Shown: in pieces, positions 13,672-61,938 of the stretch
How the letters are laid out: each line of letters opens with the position of its first letter
How positions within the stretch are numbered: the first letter of the stretch is position 1
Source: Caldilineaceae bacterium SB0664_bin_27
GTDB lineage: Bacteria > Chloroflexota > Anaerolineae > Caldilineales > Caldilineaceae
Reading direction: 5' to 3'
DNA: 64,000 nucleotides
Assembly: GCA_009838625.1 (NCBI GenBank)
Contig: VXRG01000067.1
Location: forward strand, 1-64,000
Notes under the pieces: generated by a model
What the model was told of the DNA's origin: nothing
The model's input: the letters and a program-made list of their open reading frames with translations, nothing else
Databases searched by the model: none
Program-made: the position numbers and the translations under genes

Positions 13672-13797
13672 TCTGCGTCCGGTTTATCACCGGCCAGTGC
13701 CCAGATCCTTACTTTGTGGTTCAGACAAGCGCCAGGGGAAAATGTTGAGCGCGCCCAACTTTGCTCGCACCATGGTCGCAGCCGGACCTTTCGTCAC

Positions 13798-14790
13798 ATG
13801 AATCACAGCTCCAACGACATCCCCATTATCGAAGCAGTTCCTAACTTCTCAGAGGGCCGCCGCGACGATGTCATCGACAGGCTGGCGGCAGCAGTCCAGG
13901 CGTACGGCGCGCGGCTACTCCATCGCACCAGCGATTCTTATCACAACCGCACCGTTCTCACGGTCGCAGGCCCGCCGGAACAGGTTCTGCGGGGGCTGTT
14001 CTATGCGGTCGAAGTGGCTGTCGCCTGCATCGACCTTCGGCGGCATCGGGGCGTCCATCCCAGACTGGGCGCGGCCGACGTGGTTCCGCTCGTCCCGGTC
14101 GGCAGCACTCTCCTCGCGGACTGCGCTCTCCTTGCCCGGCGATTGGGTCGACGCATCGGTGATGAGCTGGATGTGCCCGTCTACCTCTACGGCGAAGCGG
14201 CCGCGAGAGCTGAGCGCCGCAATCTGGCCGACGTCCGGCGCGGTGAATATGAGGCCCTGGTCAGGGAAATCCACCTTCCGCAGCGCCTGCCAGACTTCGG
14301 TCCGGCCAGGGCGGGCCCGGCGGGCGCGGTTGTGGTTGGGGCCAGGCCTGTTCTCATTGCCTTCAACGTTTTCCTGCGCACCGCCGATGTTGCCGTCGCC
14401 AGAACGATAGCCCGCCAGATACGCGAGCGCGACGGCGGTCTGCCCGCGGTCCGGGCCCTGGGCCTCCTTGTCGATGGTCAGGCCCAGGTCAGCATGAATC
14501 TTGTTGACTATCGCGCCACATCCCCTCAGGCGGCGGTCAATGCCATTCGTCGGCATGCCGCCCGCCACGCTGTGGAGCTGGACCGCAGCGAACTGATCGG
14601 CCTCATCCCTCAAGGCGCCCTGCCAGGAATCGGGGAGCAGAACGGAGTTAGTGACGGAGAGTCCCTGTCGACTCGCACACTGCCGACTCGCACACTGTCG
14701 CCTCGCACACTGTCGGCCGCGGCCGATGCACTCCTGCTGCCGGAACTGGCTCCTGACCGCGTGCTGGAAGTTGCATTGCGCCAGCCGTAG
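13798..14790 (+). CDS. ftcD: Glutamate formimidoyltransferase
   Basis: The protein transfers a formimino group from formiminoglutamate to tetrahydrofolate, the last step of one histidine degradation route. It corresponds to the transferase domain only (330 residues); the cyclodeaminase domain of the bifunctional enzyme is absent. Family blocks seen are the N-terminal AVPNFSEGR, SYHNRTVLT, the RHRGVHPRLGAADVVP block and the NLVDY segment. The ATG at 13798 puts the first conserved block at the expected distance; an earlier frame-open GTG/TTG region has no similarity. A 15-base tandem repeat is inserted near the C-terminus (14665-14709). No other histidine catabolism genes are nearby. Confidence 0.92.
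   Translation: MNHSSNDIPIIEAVPNFSEGRRDDVIDRLAAAVQAYGARLLHRTSDSYHNRTVLTVAGPPEQVLRGLFYAVEVAVACIDLRRHRGVHPRLGAADVVPLVPVGSTLLADCALLARRLGRRIGDELDVPVYLYGEAAARAERRNLADVRRGEYEALVREIHLPQRLPDFGPARAGPAGAVVVGARPVLIAFNVFLRTADVAVARTIARQIRERDGGLPAVRALGLLVDGQAQVSMNLVDYRATSPQAAVNAIRRHAARHAVELDRSELIGLIPQGALPGIGEQNGVSDGESLSTRTLPTRTLSPRTLSAAADALLLPELAPDRVLEVALRQP
14665..14709 (+). repeat. 15-base tandem repeat, three copies, inside ftcD
   Basis: Three consecutive copies of CTGTCGACTCGCACA, differing at single bases, encode a Ser/Pro-Thr-Arg-Thr-Leu pentapeptide three times. The repeat keeps the reading frame and lies in a region that is normally a surface loop before the C-terminal helix. Confidence 0.85.
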
Positions 14791-54832: not shown

Positions 54833-55939
54833 TCAGTGAGCAGCCAGTTTCCCAACGAGCCGCACATATTGTGCATAGTCAATCTCTATGCGCCGACCAA
54901 TGTACTCTTTGGTTGATGGAGCTTTTTCCTGGACACAGACTAATCGGCTAGTTGTACGGAGAAGAAAAGCGTCTGACCCCGCCCCGCTCCCGTAACTGAC
55001 GACCAGGACAAGTTGACCTTCGCTGGCAATATCCAGGATAGCTGTCAGACCGACGAGGGCGGAACCGGCGTATGTGTTGCCAATCTCTTCGACGAGCAGT
55101 CCGTTCTCCCACTGTTCTCTTGCAAATCCCAAGGTGCGCATTGCCCGTACTGGGAATTTGACATTGGGCTGGTGTACGACAACATGGTCGATATCCTCCG
55201 CAGTCAGCCCCGCTTCCTGCATCATCTGGTCCGCGGCCGGCATGACATGTCCGAAGTAACCGGGATCTCCACTGAAGCGCTCGGCATGGCTGGGAAACTG
55301 CATTCCGGGCCTTCTCCAGAAATCAGTCGTATCCGAAACATAACCCAGGCTTCCCTCGATTACAGCAACCGATTCCTCTGCTGCTCCCAGCAATAAGGCG
55401 GCGCCGCCCGCGCCCGCAGTGTATTCCAGCGCATCACCTGGGCGGCTCTGCGCAATGTCCATCCCGACAGCTAGGGCATAAGGAGCCATACCGCTGCCGA
55501 CCAAACCGATCGCGGCCTGCACTGCTTCCGTACCCGCCTTGCAAGCGAACTGCCAATCTCCTGCCTGCGTGGCAGGTGTGGCGCCGATCGCCTCGGCAAC
55601 GATTGTTCCGGTCGGCTTGACCGCATAGGGGTGACTCTCGCTACCCACCCAGACGGCGCCAATCTCCTGCGGATCGATCAATGACCGCGCCAGCGCATTG
55701 CGGGCAGCCTCTATGCTCATTGTGGCCGTGTCTTCATCAAGCCCTGGCACGGCCTTTTCGCCTACGGACTTAGTGGCTCTCCTATCCTGCAAACCAATTA
55801 TTCCATCGGGCGACCTCTTGCTAAGGGCTTCAATTTCGCCTGTCCAGACCCTGCTGATCTCTGAACCAGGCAAGCGGTAGCGCGGAACGTAAGCACCGTA
55901 TCCCACTATCCCTACCTGCTGAACTGGTTGATTCAACAT
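54833..55939 (-). CDS. mvaS: Hydroxymethylglutaryl-CoA synthase, archaeal-like
   Basis: The enzyme condenses acetyl-CoA with acetoacetyl-CoA to HMG-CoA at the start of the mevalonate pathway. The 368-residue protein is a thiolase-fold synthase of the archaeal/PksG-like type: N-terminal GIVGYGAYVPRYRLP, the catalytic cysteine Cys133 in FACKAGTEA, and the DIDHVVVHQPNVKFP block with its histidine. It follows mvaA by 55 bases in the same operon, so the two are made together. Chloroflexota and some other bacteria use this pathway for isoprenoids. Later pathway genes are not in the window. Confidence 0.93.
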   Translation of the reverse strand: MLNQPVQQVGIVGYGAYVPRYRLPGSEISRVWTGEIEALSKRSPDGIIGLQDRRATKSVGEKAVPGLDEDTATMSIEAARNALARSLIDPQEIGAVWVGSESHPYAVKPTGTIVAEAIGATPATQAGDWQFACKAGTEAVQAAIGLVGSGMAPYALAVGMDIAQSRPGDALEYTAGAGGAALLLGAAEESVAVIEGSLGYVSDTTDFWRRPGMQFPSHAERFSGDPGYFGHVMPAADQMMQEAGLTAEDIDHVVVHQPNVKFPVRAMRTLGFAREQWENGLLVEEIGNTYAGSALVGLTAILDIASEGQLVLVVSYGSGAGSDAFLLRTTSRLVCVQEKAPSTKEYIGRRIEIDYAQYVRLVGKLAAH

Positions 55940-55994: not shown

Positions 55995-57281
55995 TCACTT
56001 TTGCAACAGCTCCCTGGCCCGTTCCAGTCGTATCTTTCCTTCCGTCACAAGTTGACGGGCAACCAGCTCGACCTCCTCGCCTTCAGCGCCGGCCGCCACC
56101 GCTACTTGACGCGCATGCAGACGCATATGGCCCTTCTGAATGCCCGTGGTCGCCAGCGCTCGCAATGCCGCAAGATTCTGCGCCAAACCTACAGCGGCGA
56201 CAATTTCGCTTAGCCTTCTCGCCCCTTGGTGCCAGGTCTCTGCGCTCACTTCTTCGTCAGACCTACGGCTGCCAGCCCCAGGCTCAGTTTCATTCTTAGC
56301 TGCCAGTCCGAGGATCTTCAGCGCTAGTCGGGCAGAAGGGTGGCTTTGCGTTGCCCCGCCCACTATCCCTACAGCCATCGGCAACTCCAGACGTCCGAAT
56401 AAGGACTCGAACTTCCCGCATGCGCGCACGTGCCAGTCCGTCAACGCCCGGTATTGACCGTCACGCGCTGCCCAGGCGTGCGCACCTGCTTCCACAGCGC
56501 GCCAGTCGTTCCCGGTGGCCAAAAGCACCGCGTCAATACCGTTAAAGATCCCTTTGTTGTGGGTCGCTGCCCTGTAGCTGTCCGCAAAGGCGAATGCATT
56601 CGCCTCAGCAATGCCGCGTACGACATCTTTGCCATCATAGGCATCGTTGTCGAACGCCGCGGCAGGGATTTCAACCTCGGCCCACGCACGTCTCCTGTCG
56701 CTCAGGTTGGAGAGAATTCGCAATCCCGCTCGGCCTCCACTCAACTGTTCAAGCAGCGGCGCGACAGCTTCAGCTGCAGTGTTGGCGGCATTTGCCCCCA
56801 TTGCGTCCCGGCAGTCGATCAACAGGTGGACGATTAGCATGGGCCCCGCGGGCGTGTCAGGTAGTTGGCGCACTTCAACGCCTTTTGGTCCGCCCCCAAG
56901 GCGGGTGAGAGAGGGACTGGTATCGGCACAGTCCAGAATCTCCTCTCTGGATGCTAGAATCATGCGCATCGCTTTGGCTGAATCAACAACATCAAGTAGC
57001 TGAATCTGGGCGATCATTACGGGGTCCGTGCTGCCCGTCGAGAATCCGCCCCCTTCACGTGCCAGGAGTGCGGCAGCGCTGACGGCGGCAACGACAGACG
57101 GCTCCTCCACAGCCATCGGTATCAGGTAGTCTCGCCCGTCAATCAGGAAGTTTGCACCAATCCCTAATGGCAACGCATAACGGCCGACGACGTTTTCGAT
57201 CATCATGTCGGCCTGCTCGGATCCTATACTCTCGGCCAGCACCGCTGTTTCTTCGCTTGTCAGAGCCGCCCACTTGGACAA
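55995..57281 (-). CDS. mvaA: Hydroxymethylglutaryl-CoA reductase, class II
   Basis: This reductase converts HMG-CoA to mevalonate. The 428-residue protein lacks the membrane domain of class I enzymes and matches the bacterial class II form: the MAVEEPSVVAAVS block with its catalytic Glu, the DCRDAMGANAANTAAEAV block with catalytic Asp, and a C-terminal segment with HMRLHARQVA containing the His region. It is the first gene of a mvaA-mvaS operon, so the direction is biosynthetic rather than the degradative role of Pseudomonas mevalonii. A candidate promoter lies at 57416-57444. Confidence 0.94.
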   Translation of the reverse strand: MSKWAALTSEETAVLAESIGSEQADMMIENVVGRYALPLGIGANFLIDGRDYLIPMAVEEPSVVAAVSAAALLAREGGGFSTGSTDPVMIAQIQLLDVVDSAKAMRMILASREEILDCADTSPSLTRLGGGPKGVEVRQLPDTPAGPMLIVHLLIDCRDAMGANAANTAAEAVAPLLEQLSGGRAGLRILSNLSDRRRAWAEVEIPAAAFDNDAYDGKDVVRGIAEANAFAFADSYRAATHNKGIFNGIDAVLLATGNDWRAVEAGAHAWAARDGQYRALTDWHVRACGKFESLFGRLELPMAVGIVGGATQSHPSARLALKILGLAAKNETEPGAGSRRSDEEVSAETWHQGARRLSEIVAAVGLAQNLAALRALATTGIQKGHMRLHARQVAVAAGAEGEEVELVARQLVTEGKIRLERARELLQK

Positions 57282-57533: not shown

Positions 57534-58952
57534 TTAATCAAATGCCAGCAATGTCCTAGCGAGAGGTCCTTCGAACAGCTGGGGTGCGATAGCCATACCT
57601 GTGACCAGAAGTATCGCCATCAGGGAGAAGACAATGCCTAACGGCCGTTCGCGTGGCAGTTGTGGATAGGTGAGAGGACCGAAAAAGATGCCGACCATCC
57701 GCACGAAACCGAATATAACGCTGCCGCTGGCGATCAGCACGATTGCGGCAAAGCGCCAATCGCCTTCTGCAAGCGCCTGAATCGCCGACCAATGTCCCGA
57801 AAACCCCGCTGTCAGCGGGAAACCGGCCAGTCCCAGGCTTCCTAAGAGAAACGCGGCAGTGCTCCAAGGCATCCGAGCGCCCACCCCATGAAGGCTTTCC
57901 GCGTCCAAACTTCCCGTCGCCTGCCGGATCTGCGACAGTCCTGCGGATGCGCTCATTGTGCTCAATATACGTAGCGCAAAAAGAGAGACTACCATCGGCA
58001 GGCTGCCCTCATCAGATCCGGCAAGAAGCAGTAGAATCAGACCCCAGTCATGAAGCATGGCATAACCTAACAGCCGGCCCGGGTGGCTGGCTGCCGCCGC
58101 GGCCACACCGCCCCATACCAAAGTAACTGTAGCAGTTGAGGTCAACCACACGTTCAGTGCAGTGCTGGACATGAGTAATGGAAAACTCGTCGTTGCGAGA
58201 AAGTATAGATAGAGAACCAGCGTCTGATACAGAAGAATTGTAAGCGCCATCGCAATCGGTGGGGAGGACTCCCCCAGCTGTGGCTGGGCACTGTGCAGCG
58301 GAACAGGAGCCAGTAGAATGAGGAGGCCTGCCCCCAGAAGCTGCGCACCCCCAGCTGCAAGGAGAATGTCTTGAGGATTGAGAGGCAACTGCTCCATATG
58401 CCACGCCGCAAGCAACACAAATGGAGTCGCCAGAATCGGAGGCAGCATAGCGCGCAAGGAAGTCAACGCCTCACCGCCAATGCCCACTTGGAGTGGGAAA
58501 ACGCTGAGCGCCATCAGAATTGCCAGGGAAGTCGGCGCCAGAAACACCGGAGAAATCGGTGCGTCCACCATCAGGGCGAGTCCAATGTAACCTGCCCCTA
58601 CAAGCAACATCGAAGGAGGGAAGACTCTCCCCTGACTTGCGGCGGCCGTAAGCAGCATGCCCGATCCCAACAAGAGGAGGACTATAACAACTATCGGTTC
58701 ATTGGTCTGTGTAAACTGGAGGCGGAACCCGAATTCCCAAATCCCTGCCCGCAAGTCAAGGACCACAGGAATGAACGGAATGGACAGCAATGGGGAATCT
58801 ATCGGTAATCGCCATAGAACTACGCCGGCTAAACTCAACATCGCGCCGTTCGCGAGTGAGACTGTCCGTTCCCAACGGCGTAGCACATAGCTGAATAGGG
58901 TTGCCAGCAGGAGAAGGCTGAACAGAAACGATGGCAGGGCAAGCTGAATCAT
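57534..58952 (-). CDS. NuoN/antiporter-like membrane protein without lysine
   Basis: The 472-residue protein has about 12-14 membrane helices and the overall plan of the proton-pumping subunits NuoL/M/N and Mrp antiporters, including GFPLTAGFSGHWSAI in place of the usual GxPxTxGFxxK block. It contains no lysine at all; the conserved lysines of TM7, TM8 and TM12 that carry protons are replaced (for example Lys by His in GFSGH and by Leu in the LLAPVPLHS block). It is the last gene of a three-gene membrane operon with no hydrophilic complex I subunit. A scaffold or sensory role, rather than ion pumping, is inferred. Confidence 0.75.
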   Translation of the reverse strand: MIQLALPSFLFSLLLLATLFSYVLRRWERTVSLANGAMLSLAGVVLWRLPIDSPLLSIPFIPVVLDLRAGIWEFGFRLQFTQTNEPIVVIVLLLLGSGMLLTAAASQGRVFPPSMLLVGAGYIGLALMVDAPISPVFLAPTSLAILMALSVFPLQVGIGGEALTSLRAMLPPILATPFVLLAAWHMEQLPLNPQDILLAAGGAQLLGAGLLILLAPVPLHSAQPQLGESSPPIAMALTILLYQTLVLYLYFLATTSFPLLMSSTALNVWLTSTATVTLVWGGVAAAAASHPGRLLGYAMLHDWGLILLLLAGSDEGSLPMVVSLFALRILSTMSASAGLSQIRQATGSLDAESLHGVGARMPWSTAAFLLGSLGLAGFPLTAGFSGHWSAIQALAEGDWRFAAIVLIASGSVIFGFVRMVGIFFGPLTYPQLPRERPLGIVFSLMAILLVTGMAIAPQLFEGPLARTLLAFD

Positions 58953-59096
58953 GAAACGCGGTCGGTCAATTGACTGTTCTCTCTCCTGGACAAATCCAGG
59001 ATTTTTTCGCGGTCAACAAATGGAATAGGGCGGAACTCGCGCAACTTCCGCAGGTCAGATGCACATTCACTCTGTCCTTTTTCAAAGAGCCACTCC

Positions 59097-59840
59097 CTAA
59101 CTGTTTCCAGCACCTGTTTTTGGCCTTCTACTGAGAAGGCTATACATCCAGTAACCGACGCTATAGCCCAGAACTCTGGCTCCGGAGGTGATGCTGTGCC
59201 GACGATACAAGCCCGGCGCCAATTCCGGATCGGTTGAAGGAACCTCGATCAGGGTGAGCGCATCGTCCTCGGCCAGTAGGAGGAAGCTGCAGGCCAAAGC
59301 AACCAGGATCTGCAATATCCCCAGCAATACAATTACGGCCGGCAAGGGAAACAGTATTGACAAAAGTGCCTGTACGGGAATCAGCCAAAGAAGAAGGCCA
59401 ACGCCACCAAAAAGTGCTGACTCCGTTACGCCGAGCGTTATCAGTGCCACGGCGGCAAACCAAATGAATAGAACTTTGGTAGCGTCTTCAAGAAGGGGTA
59501 ATTCTATGCCTTCGCTCGCCGCCCAGACCAGCAGAGCAGCGATTCCGAGGACAAGGAGACGAAAAAGCCTTGAACTGAATTCGCCGGTGTTGCGGACCTG
59601 CACGTGGCTCGTCTGCAAAATCGAAAGTAGAAGAATCAGACAGGCCAGGACTTGTACGCCCAAATGAACCGCAGGCCAGGGCGCTGGCAGTCCGTAGACG
59701 GTTCCGACTAGTGCGCTCGTTCCCAGTTGAACGATCAAGATTCCAGGCAGTGCAACCCGCCAGTCCCACAATACGACAGGTATGCACGCGGCCAGACCCA
59801 GAACTACGTGAAATGGTACTGAAGCCCAAAAAGCAGCCAT
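59097..59840 (-). CDS. Polytopic membrane protein of the antiporter-like cluster
   Basis: The 247-residue protein has about six membrane helices and a soluble tail. I do not recognise the family; its position between two NuoL/M/N-like genes recalls HyfE-type small membrane subunits of hydrogenase-4 complexes, but no sequence signature supports this. It contains only two lysines. The gene starts 195 bases after its upstream neighbour and 145 bases before the next, on the same strand, so co-transcription is likely. Confidence 0.7.
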   Translation of the reverse strand: MAAFWASVPFHVVLGLAACIPVVLWDWRVALPGILIVQLGTSALVGTVYGLPAPWPAVHLGVQVLACLILLLSILQTSHVQVRNTGEFSSRLFRLLVLGIAALLVWAASEGIELPLLEDATKVLFIWFAAVALITLGVTESALFGGVGLLLWLIPVQALLSILFPLPAVIVLLGILQILVALACSFLLLAEDDALTLIEVPSTDPELAPGLYRRHSITSGARVLGYSVGYWMYSLLSRRPKTGAGNS

Positions 59841-60035
59841 CCGCTTATCTCGTTCTATTCGAACTCACGGCTATTGCTATTTCCGGAAACCGTCAAGTGT
59901 CCAACGCCTTTTGACCCCCCAGACCAGACTTTCGGGGTCCTTGCCCTACAATGGGAACTCTGGGGGCCTTGAAACCTGGGTCCTGAAGTGCTCCTATCCC
60001 GGTGCAAGTCAATCCCGTCATCGAGGCGGCCCCGT

Positions 60036-61862
60036 CTATGTGCTGAACAACAGATAGCCAATGATACCAAAGACGACAACCCACCCCATATGGCCCGTCC
60101 CTTCAACAATCTCCAGTCCAACATCCCAAACGGCGCCCATCCTGCCAGTACCCCACCTGGTCAGACCCGAAATCCAGTCCAGGGTTGCCAGTCGAGCGAC
60201 TCGGCTCGACCATGCTCGAAGGGTCGGCAATGTACCGGACCTGGTTCCATGTGTGCTCAAATATTCTCTGACCTGAGTGCGGGCGATTGCCAGGCCGATA
60301 CCCAACGTGAGCGGGCCTGCCAAAGTCAACCAGACCTGCCAACTCGCAACCGCGCTGGGAGGGTTCCCTGCGCCGCGCGGAATGGCATCCGGAAGGTTGG
60401 CAAGATTGGTCATCATCTCTGGAAACAGGCCGGCGGTTGCCAGCGGAATGGCAAGAACTGCGACATATACAAGCAGTCTGCCGATTATCCACGCATTCGG
60501 CCTCAGTTCCCACACTGATCCGTCGGGCTCACCGTCCCAACTGCGCAACAGAGAGGAAACGTATATCATCTGTGTAACAATGTATGCTACAAAGAGGGGC
60601 CACATCAGGGCCCCTAGTTTCCCGCACAGTGCGCTGTCGTCGGTGCAGCCGCCTGCAACCAGCAATTGTGCAACCACAGATTGCGTTAGAAACCCTGGAG
60701 TAAATGGTACACCCACGAGGGCCAGTACCCCTACGCTAATGGGAATCTGCCAGTGCCACGCCCGCCAGATCCGCTCACCAATCAACCAGAGGCCCCCGCC
60801 TAGTGCGAAAGTCGTCGTGGGCCACAAAACTGCTGCCGGCCCACGGATTTCAGACAATATGCTCGTCAGGCCCGCAATACCTACCGCGGTGACCAGTACG
60901 AAGGTCGTGTGTTCTTGCCTGGTCGTGGTCGTGAATGTTGCGATAGCCGAGCCAAGAAGACCCAACAGTGCGAGCGCCGCGATTTCAGGGCGTGCAAGAA
61001 GCTCTTCTCCTGCCAGGCCGCTCGACCAGCCCAGCAGCCACAGTCCGCAGAGCGCCGGCGGCATCTGGTCGATGAGGCGGTCCGGCATGTACAGCCGTTC
61101 ACCTCGTTGCGGCAACAGCCACAAGTGAAGAGGATAGACGCCGGCCCGGATTACGCCGGCAATCAGCATGAGTATAACCGTCTCTTGGGGCAGACGGCCC
61201 CCTGCCAGGAGTTCGGCAGGCCCTCCTTGGCCGGCCGGAAGCAGACCTATCAACAGCAACAGCGCTCCCATCATGCTCAGACCCTGAAACTGGCGGGTAG
61301 GCGATGGCCCGGGGCCTTCCGGCACTACTGCGCTGCGGGCAATCACAAACAGGTCCATGACAACCCACATCAATGTTACGGTTAAGAGGTTTCCACTGCT
61401 GACAAAGAAAAGGGCACTGGAAATCGCATTCAATGAAAGGGCAAGTGTCAACGCCCTTCCGTGCCAGTTCTCGACAGAACTCTGTTCCGCCCGCTGACCG
61501 GAAACACCGCTGAAGAGCAGCCCGCCTCCGCCGAGTAGAAGCACAAGACAGGAGACGTACCAGTTCCATCCGTTGCTCACCCACAATAGATCGGCGCCGG
61601 GTGAGAAGAATGGCTGCCATGGAATACTGAGTGCTGGGGCAGTAGGTTGAACGCGCAGCGCAACTGTCATCGCCGCAGCCAGTCCCCAAAAGAGGAGGGC
61701 AATCGCGCTCAGGATTCCGGTTGCACTCCCAAGAGCGTGCCATCTTGCGCCCGGACGCACAAAACGGCCCATTATCCACAGAACGATGCTGCCCAAAGTC
61801 AGGACAAGTGGAGGACCGACGGGGACTATCAGTGCTGTCCAAGAGAAGGTGAAGCCGTTCAT
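60036..61862 (-). CDS. NuoL/M-like antiporter-like membrane protein, lysine-depleted
   Basis: The 608-residue protein has 13-15 membrane helices and the NuoL/M fold plan. The proton-channel residues are missing: the TM5 Glu in the usual FWE motif is Val in LMWVVMD, the TM7 Lys is Arg in AGVIRAGVYPLHLW, the TM8 Lys is absent in PPALCGLWLL, and GVPFTPGFLTQ has Gln where GFxxK is expected. The whole protein has one lysine. I chose the ATG at 61862, which a promoter at 61871-61879 would make nearly leaderless; GTG at 61880 is the alternative. No other complex I or Mrp genes are nearby. Confidence 0.75.
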   Translation of the reverse strand: MNGFTFSWTALIVPVGPPLVLTLGSIVLWIMGRFVRPGARWHALGSATGILSAIALLFWGLAAAMTVALRVQPTAPALSIPWQPFFSPGADLLWVSNGWNWYVSCLVLLLGGGGLLFSGVSGQRAEQSSVENWHGRALTLALSLNAISSALFFVSSGNLLTVTLMWVVMDLFVIARSAVVPEGPGPSPTRQFQGLSMMGALLLLIGLLPAGQGGPAELLAGGRLPQETVILMLIAGVIRAGVYPLHLWLLPQRGERLYMPDRLIDQMPPALCGLWLLGWSSGLAGEELLARPEIAALALLGLLGSAIATFTTTTRQEHTTFVLVTAVGIAGLTSILSEIRGPAAVLWPTTTFALGGGLWLIGERIWRAWHWQIPISVGVLALVGVPFTPGFLTQSVVAQLLVAGGCTDDSALCGKLGALMWPLFVAYIVTQMIYVSSLLRSWDGEPDGSVWELRPNAWIIGRLLVYVAVLAIPLATAGLFPEMMTNLANLPDAIPRGAGNPPSAVASWQVWLTLAGPLTLGIGLAIARTQVREYLSTHGTRSGTLPTLRAWSSRVARLATLDWISGLTRWGTGRMGAVWDVGLEIVEGTGHMGWVVVFGIIGYLLFST

Positions 61863-61879: not shown

Positions 61880-61938
61880 CAGCAAATCACACGCTCGAAA
61901 CAGTTTGGCCCGGCCCCAATAAGCCGAATGCGGGCCGA

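Follow-up and report, generated by a model that had tools for sequence, protein, structure and literature searches.

What does the membrane arm of a respiratory complex do on its own? It is an open question how complex I links electron transfer with the pumping of ions along its long membrane arm, and a natural test of the arm alone may be offered by three adjacent membrane-protein genes of Caldilineaceae bacterium SB0664_bin_27, a member of the Chloroflexota with a genome of 5.35 Mb. The genes, here called L, M and N, are located on the minus strand in a stretch of 64,000 nucleotides (contig VXRG01000067.1, positions 1 to 64,000; the window) and are read in the order L, M, N (Table 1). They had been singled out as antiporter-like genes almost devoid of lysine. 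Based on the analysis described below, the trio is proposed to represent the membrane arm of an Ehr-like complex related to group 4 [NiFe] hydrogenases; the arm would be without electron-transfer subunits, have a rebuilt ion path and exchange or conduct H+ redox-free. We consider this reading about evenly poised between right and wrong.

L and N both belong, by sequence or fold, to the Proton_antipo_M superfamily, which includes NuoL/M/N, MrpA/D and HyfB/D/F. N exceeds the PF00361 cut-off and aligns lengthwise with all of these subunits (scores in Table 1). L alone gave no Pfam match, and the L profile aligned with the canonical family over 426 columns. The AlphaFold (AF2) model of L was matched by VIA-align to Escherichia coli NuoL over residues 9-608 with a Z of about 32, and it also resembles MrpA over nearly the full chain (Z about 30-32 for NuoL and MrpA). 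The assignment of two NuoL/M/N-type proteins in the original prediction is therefore upheld by the fold of L and the family membership of N. The ion pair of the superfamily, a Glu in transmembrane helix 5 (TM5) and a Lys in TM7, was found in neither L608 nor N472. In the tree, the 14 canonical sequences formed one group separate from every trio member. The nearest named relatives in the N tree were Caldilineaceae metagenome-assembled genomes, among which SB0661_bin_32 encodes an N that is 97% identical.

M had been counted as a third antiporter-type protein, and this did not hold, as its best match was HyfE. A single M sequence used as query retrieved almost nothing outside the family, and the wider search was made with a profile. 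The profile of 100 M sequences matched the HyfE profile over 182 columns (probability 71, E 3.7e-5), a match comparable in strength to that of NuoK with HyfE in a control comparison (probability 78, E 1.9e-5). NuoJ, NuoK and NuoH were rejected as identities of M because their hhalign matches were far weaker than that to HyfE, and the match to MbhD/DUF4040 was weak (E 0.035). With the AF2 model of M, Foldseek and VIA-align returned only unspecific helical matches, including ND1 and ND6. A HyfE-type subunit between antiporter-like subunits is a feature of group 4 hydrogenases and Ehr complexes, and it is seen here at moderate strength; M is accordingly regarded, with moderate confidence, as a HyfE-like subunit.

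The origin of the set, which had been left undefined, is indicated by loci in which the same trio is accompanied by redox subunits. In the Chloroflexus, Roseiflexus and Herpetosiphon types of the Chloroflexia, and in one deeper lineage (G343), a homologue of the 49-kDa/hydrogenase large subunit, here called D, is encoded directly upstream of L. These Chloroflexia genomes are taken by us to be those of Chloroflexus aurantiacus J-10-fl, C. aggregans, Roseiflexus sp. RS-1 and Herpetosiphon aurantiacus. The best solved relatives of D are the group 4 subunits HycE (E 9e-37) and MbhL (E 1e-35). The Roseiflexus-type D has kept RICGECSFAH towards its N-terminus and VCVAC towards its C-terminus; CPHC..H and DPCTAC are present in the Chloroflexus D, and one of these cysteines is lost in the Herpetosiphon D. 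In the Roseiflexus-type locus, N is followed by a gene for an iron-sulfur small subunit, B, which has MbhJ as its closest relative and retains GSCGGCD along with further cysteines. At the G343 locus (L218:7190-7678, minus strand), B is present but its iron-sulfur cysteines are gone, while D retains CxxC motifs; partial erosion is thus seen even where D is present. In Chloroflexus and Roseiflexus types, N or B is also followed by a hydrophobic gene of about 273 codons (L208:10713-11537, L211:10922-11743, L209:5889-6707). Its weak, colinear NuoH-like match (probability 17) is a lead only, and the gene perhaps encodes a degenerate NuoH-like docking subunit.

The large subunit is present in the Chloroflexia and G343 and is not encoded with the trio in the window or in other Anaerolineae. 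Of the 36 best D matches of the phylum, 35 are found at most about 3.5 kb from M, which is true of none of the nine matches to D in the class Anaerolineae. The window genome contains no such D at 1e-40, and its matches to PF00346 (the 49-kDa family) sit in complex I-type gene sets. Examination of the genes neighbouring the window trio revealed no hydrophilic complex I, Mrp or hydrogenase gene: NuoB, C, D, H and I are not encoded there, nor are small MrpB/C/E/F/G-type proteins. The earlier statement that no redox gene adjoins the trio is thus correct for the window, where the neighbours are mevalonate, PhyH-type and FtsH-like genes; in other classes such a gene does adjoin. Because the Chloroflexia and the deeper lineage encode the same trio with D, and some of them with B, the trio is read as a hydrogenase-related membrane arm.

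The trio is a conserved unit, as had been predicted. The order L-M-N is kept in nearly all tested genomes of the Caldilineaceae and in most other families of the Anaerolineae, and the M profile matched 112 of 400 Chloroflexota genomes, including 56 of the 61 Anaerolineae genomes listed. In the best 78 loci of the named genome collection, every trio locus belonged to the Chloroflexota, and the farther N matches were ordinary complex I genes. Within the genus, the ratio of nonsynonymous to synonymous substitution rates (dN/dS) was 0.04-0.12 for the three genes, which indicates strong purifying selection on L, M and N.

The lack of lysine, by which the trio was first noticed, was borne out: the open reading frames (ORFs) were found where they had been placed, with no lysine in N, one in L and two in M, against 17, 30 and 9 arginines, respectively. 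Eight canonical antiporter-type subunits of the same genome together contain 82 lysines and 151 arginines, giving a K/(K+R) of 0.35 in its own NuoL/M/N and MrpA/D, while L and N contain 1 and 47 (Fisher p 3.6e-7). When three channel lysines per canonical subunit were subtracted, the difference remained (p 3.4e-5). The loss therefore goes beyond chance or GC bias, as had been suspected. As the oddity of a single protein it is milder, since other polytopic proteins of the genome are also rich in arginine (one lysine and 25 arginines in a 284-residue protein, 4 and 26 in MrpD). Arginine is in fact favoured generally across the genome, so the lysine count alone is no proof of a special mechanism. 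Lysine depletion is a graded trait of the family: K/(K+R) is 0.03 for N of the Caldilineaceae, which is lysine-free in 30 of 50 sequences, and 0.11 in other family members, and L and N of two deep members each contain 8-21 lysines. The lysine-free state is derived and is not a founding feature of the family. Elsewhere in the window, a non-hydrophobic ORF of 358 residues (13714-14790, plus strand) has no lysine and 45 arginines and is a stronger composition outlier than N472, although it may not be a real gene.

The channel positions were located with a profile alignment and a second alignment, using E133, K217, K247 and K395 of E. coli NuoN (TM5, TM7, TM8 and TM12) as the ruler. The corresponding residues are V167, R239, A270 and Q394 in L608 and A144, L213, Q243 and H387 in N472; for the K247 site the two alignments are one residue apart and give Q243 or T244. 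The residue list of the original prediction was correct overall, except that the TM5 site is Val only in L and is Ala in N. Its picture of a path stripped of charge was not supported, as Arg, His and a shifted Asp fill several of the sites and the path looks rewired. In most homologues of L, the TM7 site is occupied by Arg and an Asp stands one helical turn past the lost TM5 Glu; in N, the TM12 site is mainly His or Arg (Table 1). In the 90 N sequences, the TM7 site is mostly Leu and the TM5 site is still Glu in 23. Near-invariant charges elsewhere are R328 and D302 of N and R94 and R28 of M. Homologues with aligned channel lysines, which the original prediction had named as evidence against itself, do exist in the deepest members: L retains E/K/K and N has K at TM12 in L216, and L retains E and K in L218. 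By these alignments, the channel residues are replaced and not simply removed, Glu/Lys by Asp/Arg in L and Lys by His/Arg at TM12 in N. That a redox-free arm with Asp/Arg and His/Arg in place of Glu/Lys in its ion path is widespread in the Anaerolineae is suggested tentatively, at somewhat less than even confidence.

The proposed course of events is as follows. In the ancestral complex, L-M-N would have been flanked by D (NuoD/HycE-like) and, in some genomes, by B (NuoB/MbhJ-like). Both appear to have gone from the locus in the Anaerolineae, including the window genome; their absence is evident from synteny and sequence, and that it reflects loss and not gain is deduced. The arm has been retained under strong purifying selection, and at the level of sequence its ion path is rebuilt, with Glu/Lys changing to Asp/Arg in L and Lys to Leu/Gln, together with His/Arg at TM12, in N. 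L, M and N would assemble into one membrane complex that may move H+ along gradients already present, perhaps with counter-transport of Na+ or K+, in an Mrp-like manner and with no redox reaction of its own. The function is thus probably ion exchange or conduction without redox chemistry. Ion movement is proposed because of the fold, the purifying selection and the conserved buried charges (D170 and R239 of L; D302, R328 and H/R387 of N; R28 and R94 of M), and because of two reports on related proteins. Isolated Nqo12 and Nqo13 pass protons in liposomes (PMC11496545), and the MrpA mutations E113Q and K196A have almost no effect on growth or sodium extrusion in a sodium-tolerance model, whereas equivalent NuoL mutations cripple complex I (PMC4938563).

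Several points weigh against this redox-free arm. The match of M to HyfE is moderate, and no basic residue is present at the TM7 site of N or the TM8 site of L, so that a continuous proton wire is not evident. The simplest history would be the loss of D and B, in the Anaerolineae, from a complex related to group 4 hydrogenases; the reverse, in which D and B recruited a trio and were gained in the Chloroflexia, is possible but less natural, as the three proteins of the trio look like a hydrogenase membrane arm already. The trio might also be a redox-driven pump with split genes, its redox module being encoded elsewhere, either by a detached NuoB-NuoCD-NuoI set or as the complex I peripheral arm. 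A free-standing NuoB-CD-I module does exist in the window genome and in other Anaerolineae: it is encoded on C53 (L259:382-3944), apart from the NuoH-J-K-L-M-N genes on C28 (L101), a separation also seen in L258, L260 and L261, and the two sets form one cluster in Chloroflexus and Roseiflexus types. In those types, however, the equivalent B-CD-I genes are joined in position to a complete NuoH-N set, and in the window genome the NuoH-J-K-L-M-N set, which has no adjoining soluble genes, is the likelier partner. In addition, the genes of the window trio are not accompanied by one for a NuoH-like docking subunit. The detached module is more likely to be half of the second complex I than the partner of the trio, and a split redox pump is considered unlikely.

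A similarly low probability is given to an ion-inactive trio that serves as a membrane scaffold or sensor, for example one tied to mevalonate/isoprenoid synthesis in the Caldilineaceae. The canonical channel residues are indeed gone, and wherever a Caldilineaceae locus extends 0.9 kb or more downstream of N, the gene for 3-hydroxy-3-methylglutaryl-coenzyme A (HMG-CoA) reductase comes next, nearly always accompanied by that for HMG-CoA synthase, an arrangement also found in several other families of the class. The buried charges, however, are conserved in kind, and the mevalonate link is missing from the Anaerolineales and Chloroflexia loci examined and therefore cannot explain the conserved trio. 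The linkage looks like a late arrangement, and a functional tie is possible. Finally, the trio could be the decaying remnant of a lost hydrogenase-like complex, with its lysines lost by drift under an arginine-rich composition. Such drift would agree with the general preference of the genome for arginine, but dN/dS values of about 0.05, intact ORFs and a gene order constant across many families make decay very improbable.

Compared with known systems, the trio is closest to the group 4 [NiFe] hydrogenases and Ehr complexes, with which it shares antiporter-like L and N and a HyfE-like M, to which the Chloroflexia add a HycE/Mbh-like large subunit and sometimes an MbhJ-like small subunit. Ehr complexes are described as relatives of group 4 in which the Ni/Fe ligands are missing and antiporter-like subunits are present (PMC6349859; PMC10284858). 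The trio differs in that the Anaerolineae loci are without large and small subunits, the window trio is without a NuoH-like subunit and the channel Glu/Lys are replaced; since the window trio has no large subunit, it is classed as a derivative of this group and not as a member. The fold and family of L and N are those of the complex I membrane arm (NuoL, NuoM, NuoN), but NuoA/H/J and soluble subunits are not found beside the trio, M is HyfE-like, and the genome owns complete complex I-type sets, with genes on C122 and C28. With Mrp (MrpA-G) the trio would share a redox-free arm on MrpA-/MrpD-type subunits, and L also matches MrpA; it differs in having no adjoining MrpB/C/E/F/G-type genes, and a separate Mrp-type set on C117 retains the channel lysines. 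The DAB (DabA-DabB) inorganic carbon transporter contains a NuoL-type subunit operating without electron transfer, as is proposed for the trio. DabA (PF10070) gave no match in the window genome (G000) or in the same-class genomes G012, G029 and G065.

No account of a membrane-arm-only derivative, or of a Chloroflexota family of such make-up, was found in the open-access papers searched. In the C. aurantiacus genome paper two complex I clusters are listed, and searching it by term brought up no mention of the trio genes. What would be new here is that a hydrogenase/complex I membrane arm has given rise to a form with no redox module. If this is true, evolution has produced in the trio a counterpart of the antiporter modules dissected in the laboratory, operating without any redox module. 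The loci also form a graded natural series, from D-L-M-N-B with [NiFe]-type motifs (Roseiflexus type) through D-L-M-N with partly eroded motifs (Chloroflexus and Herpetosiphon types) to L-M-N alone (Anaerolineae). Along this series the channel Glu/Lys give way to other charges, so that the residues needed for redox coupling and those needed for ion movement become directly testable.

Table 1. Positions of the trio, of key codons and of the two kept neighbouring genes in the window.
Feature	Position	Strand	Description	Evidence or conservation
L608	60036-61862	-	NuoL/MrpA-like membrane protein, 608 residues, 1 lysine, ATG start	hhalign E 2.5e-18; AF2 predicted local distance difference test (pLDDT) 85.5
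M247	59097-59840	-	HyfE-like membrane protein, 247 residues	profile-profile match to HyfE; AF2 pLDDT 86.6; always between L and N
N472	57534-58952	-	NuoN/HyfF/MrpD-like membrane protein, 472 residues, 0 lysine	PF00361 35.2 bits (cut-off 21.5); hhalign E 2.6e-29
L Asp170 codon	61353-61355	-	one helical turn past lost TM5 Glu site	Asp in 66/77 L homologues
L Arg239 codon	61146-61148	-	TM7 Lys site	Arg 68/77, Lys 2/77 homologues; Lys in 14/14 canonical proteins
N Arg328 codon	57969-57971	-		invariant in 29-sequence alignment
N His387 codon	57792-57794	-	TM12 Lys/Glu site	His 44, Arg 35, Lys 3 of 90 homologues
HMG-CoA reductase gene	55995-57281	-	downstream neighbour	kept in Caldilineaceae and some other families
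HMG-CoA synthase gene	54833-55939	-	second kept neighbour, downstream of trio, same strand	

The other neighbours of the trio in the window are a PhyH-type oxygenase gene and an ORF read from its sequence as FtsH-like. A 54-residue ORF between M and N was rejected as a gene, as close relatives do not share it and the space between M and N in the related locus L116 is too short for it. L would have 614 residues if the upstream GTG at 61880 were the start codon instead of the ATG.

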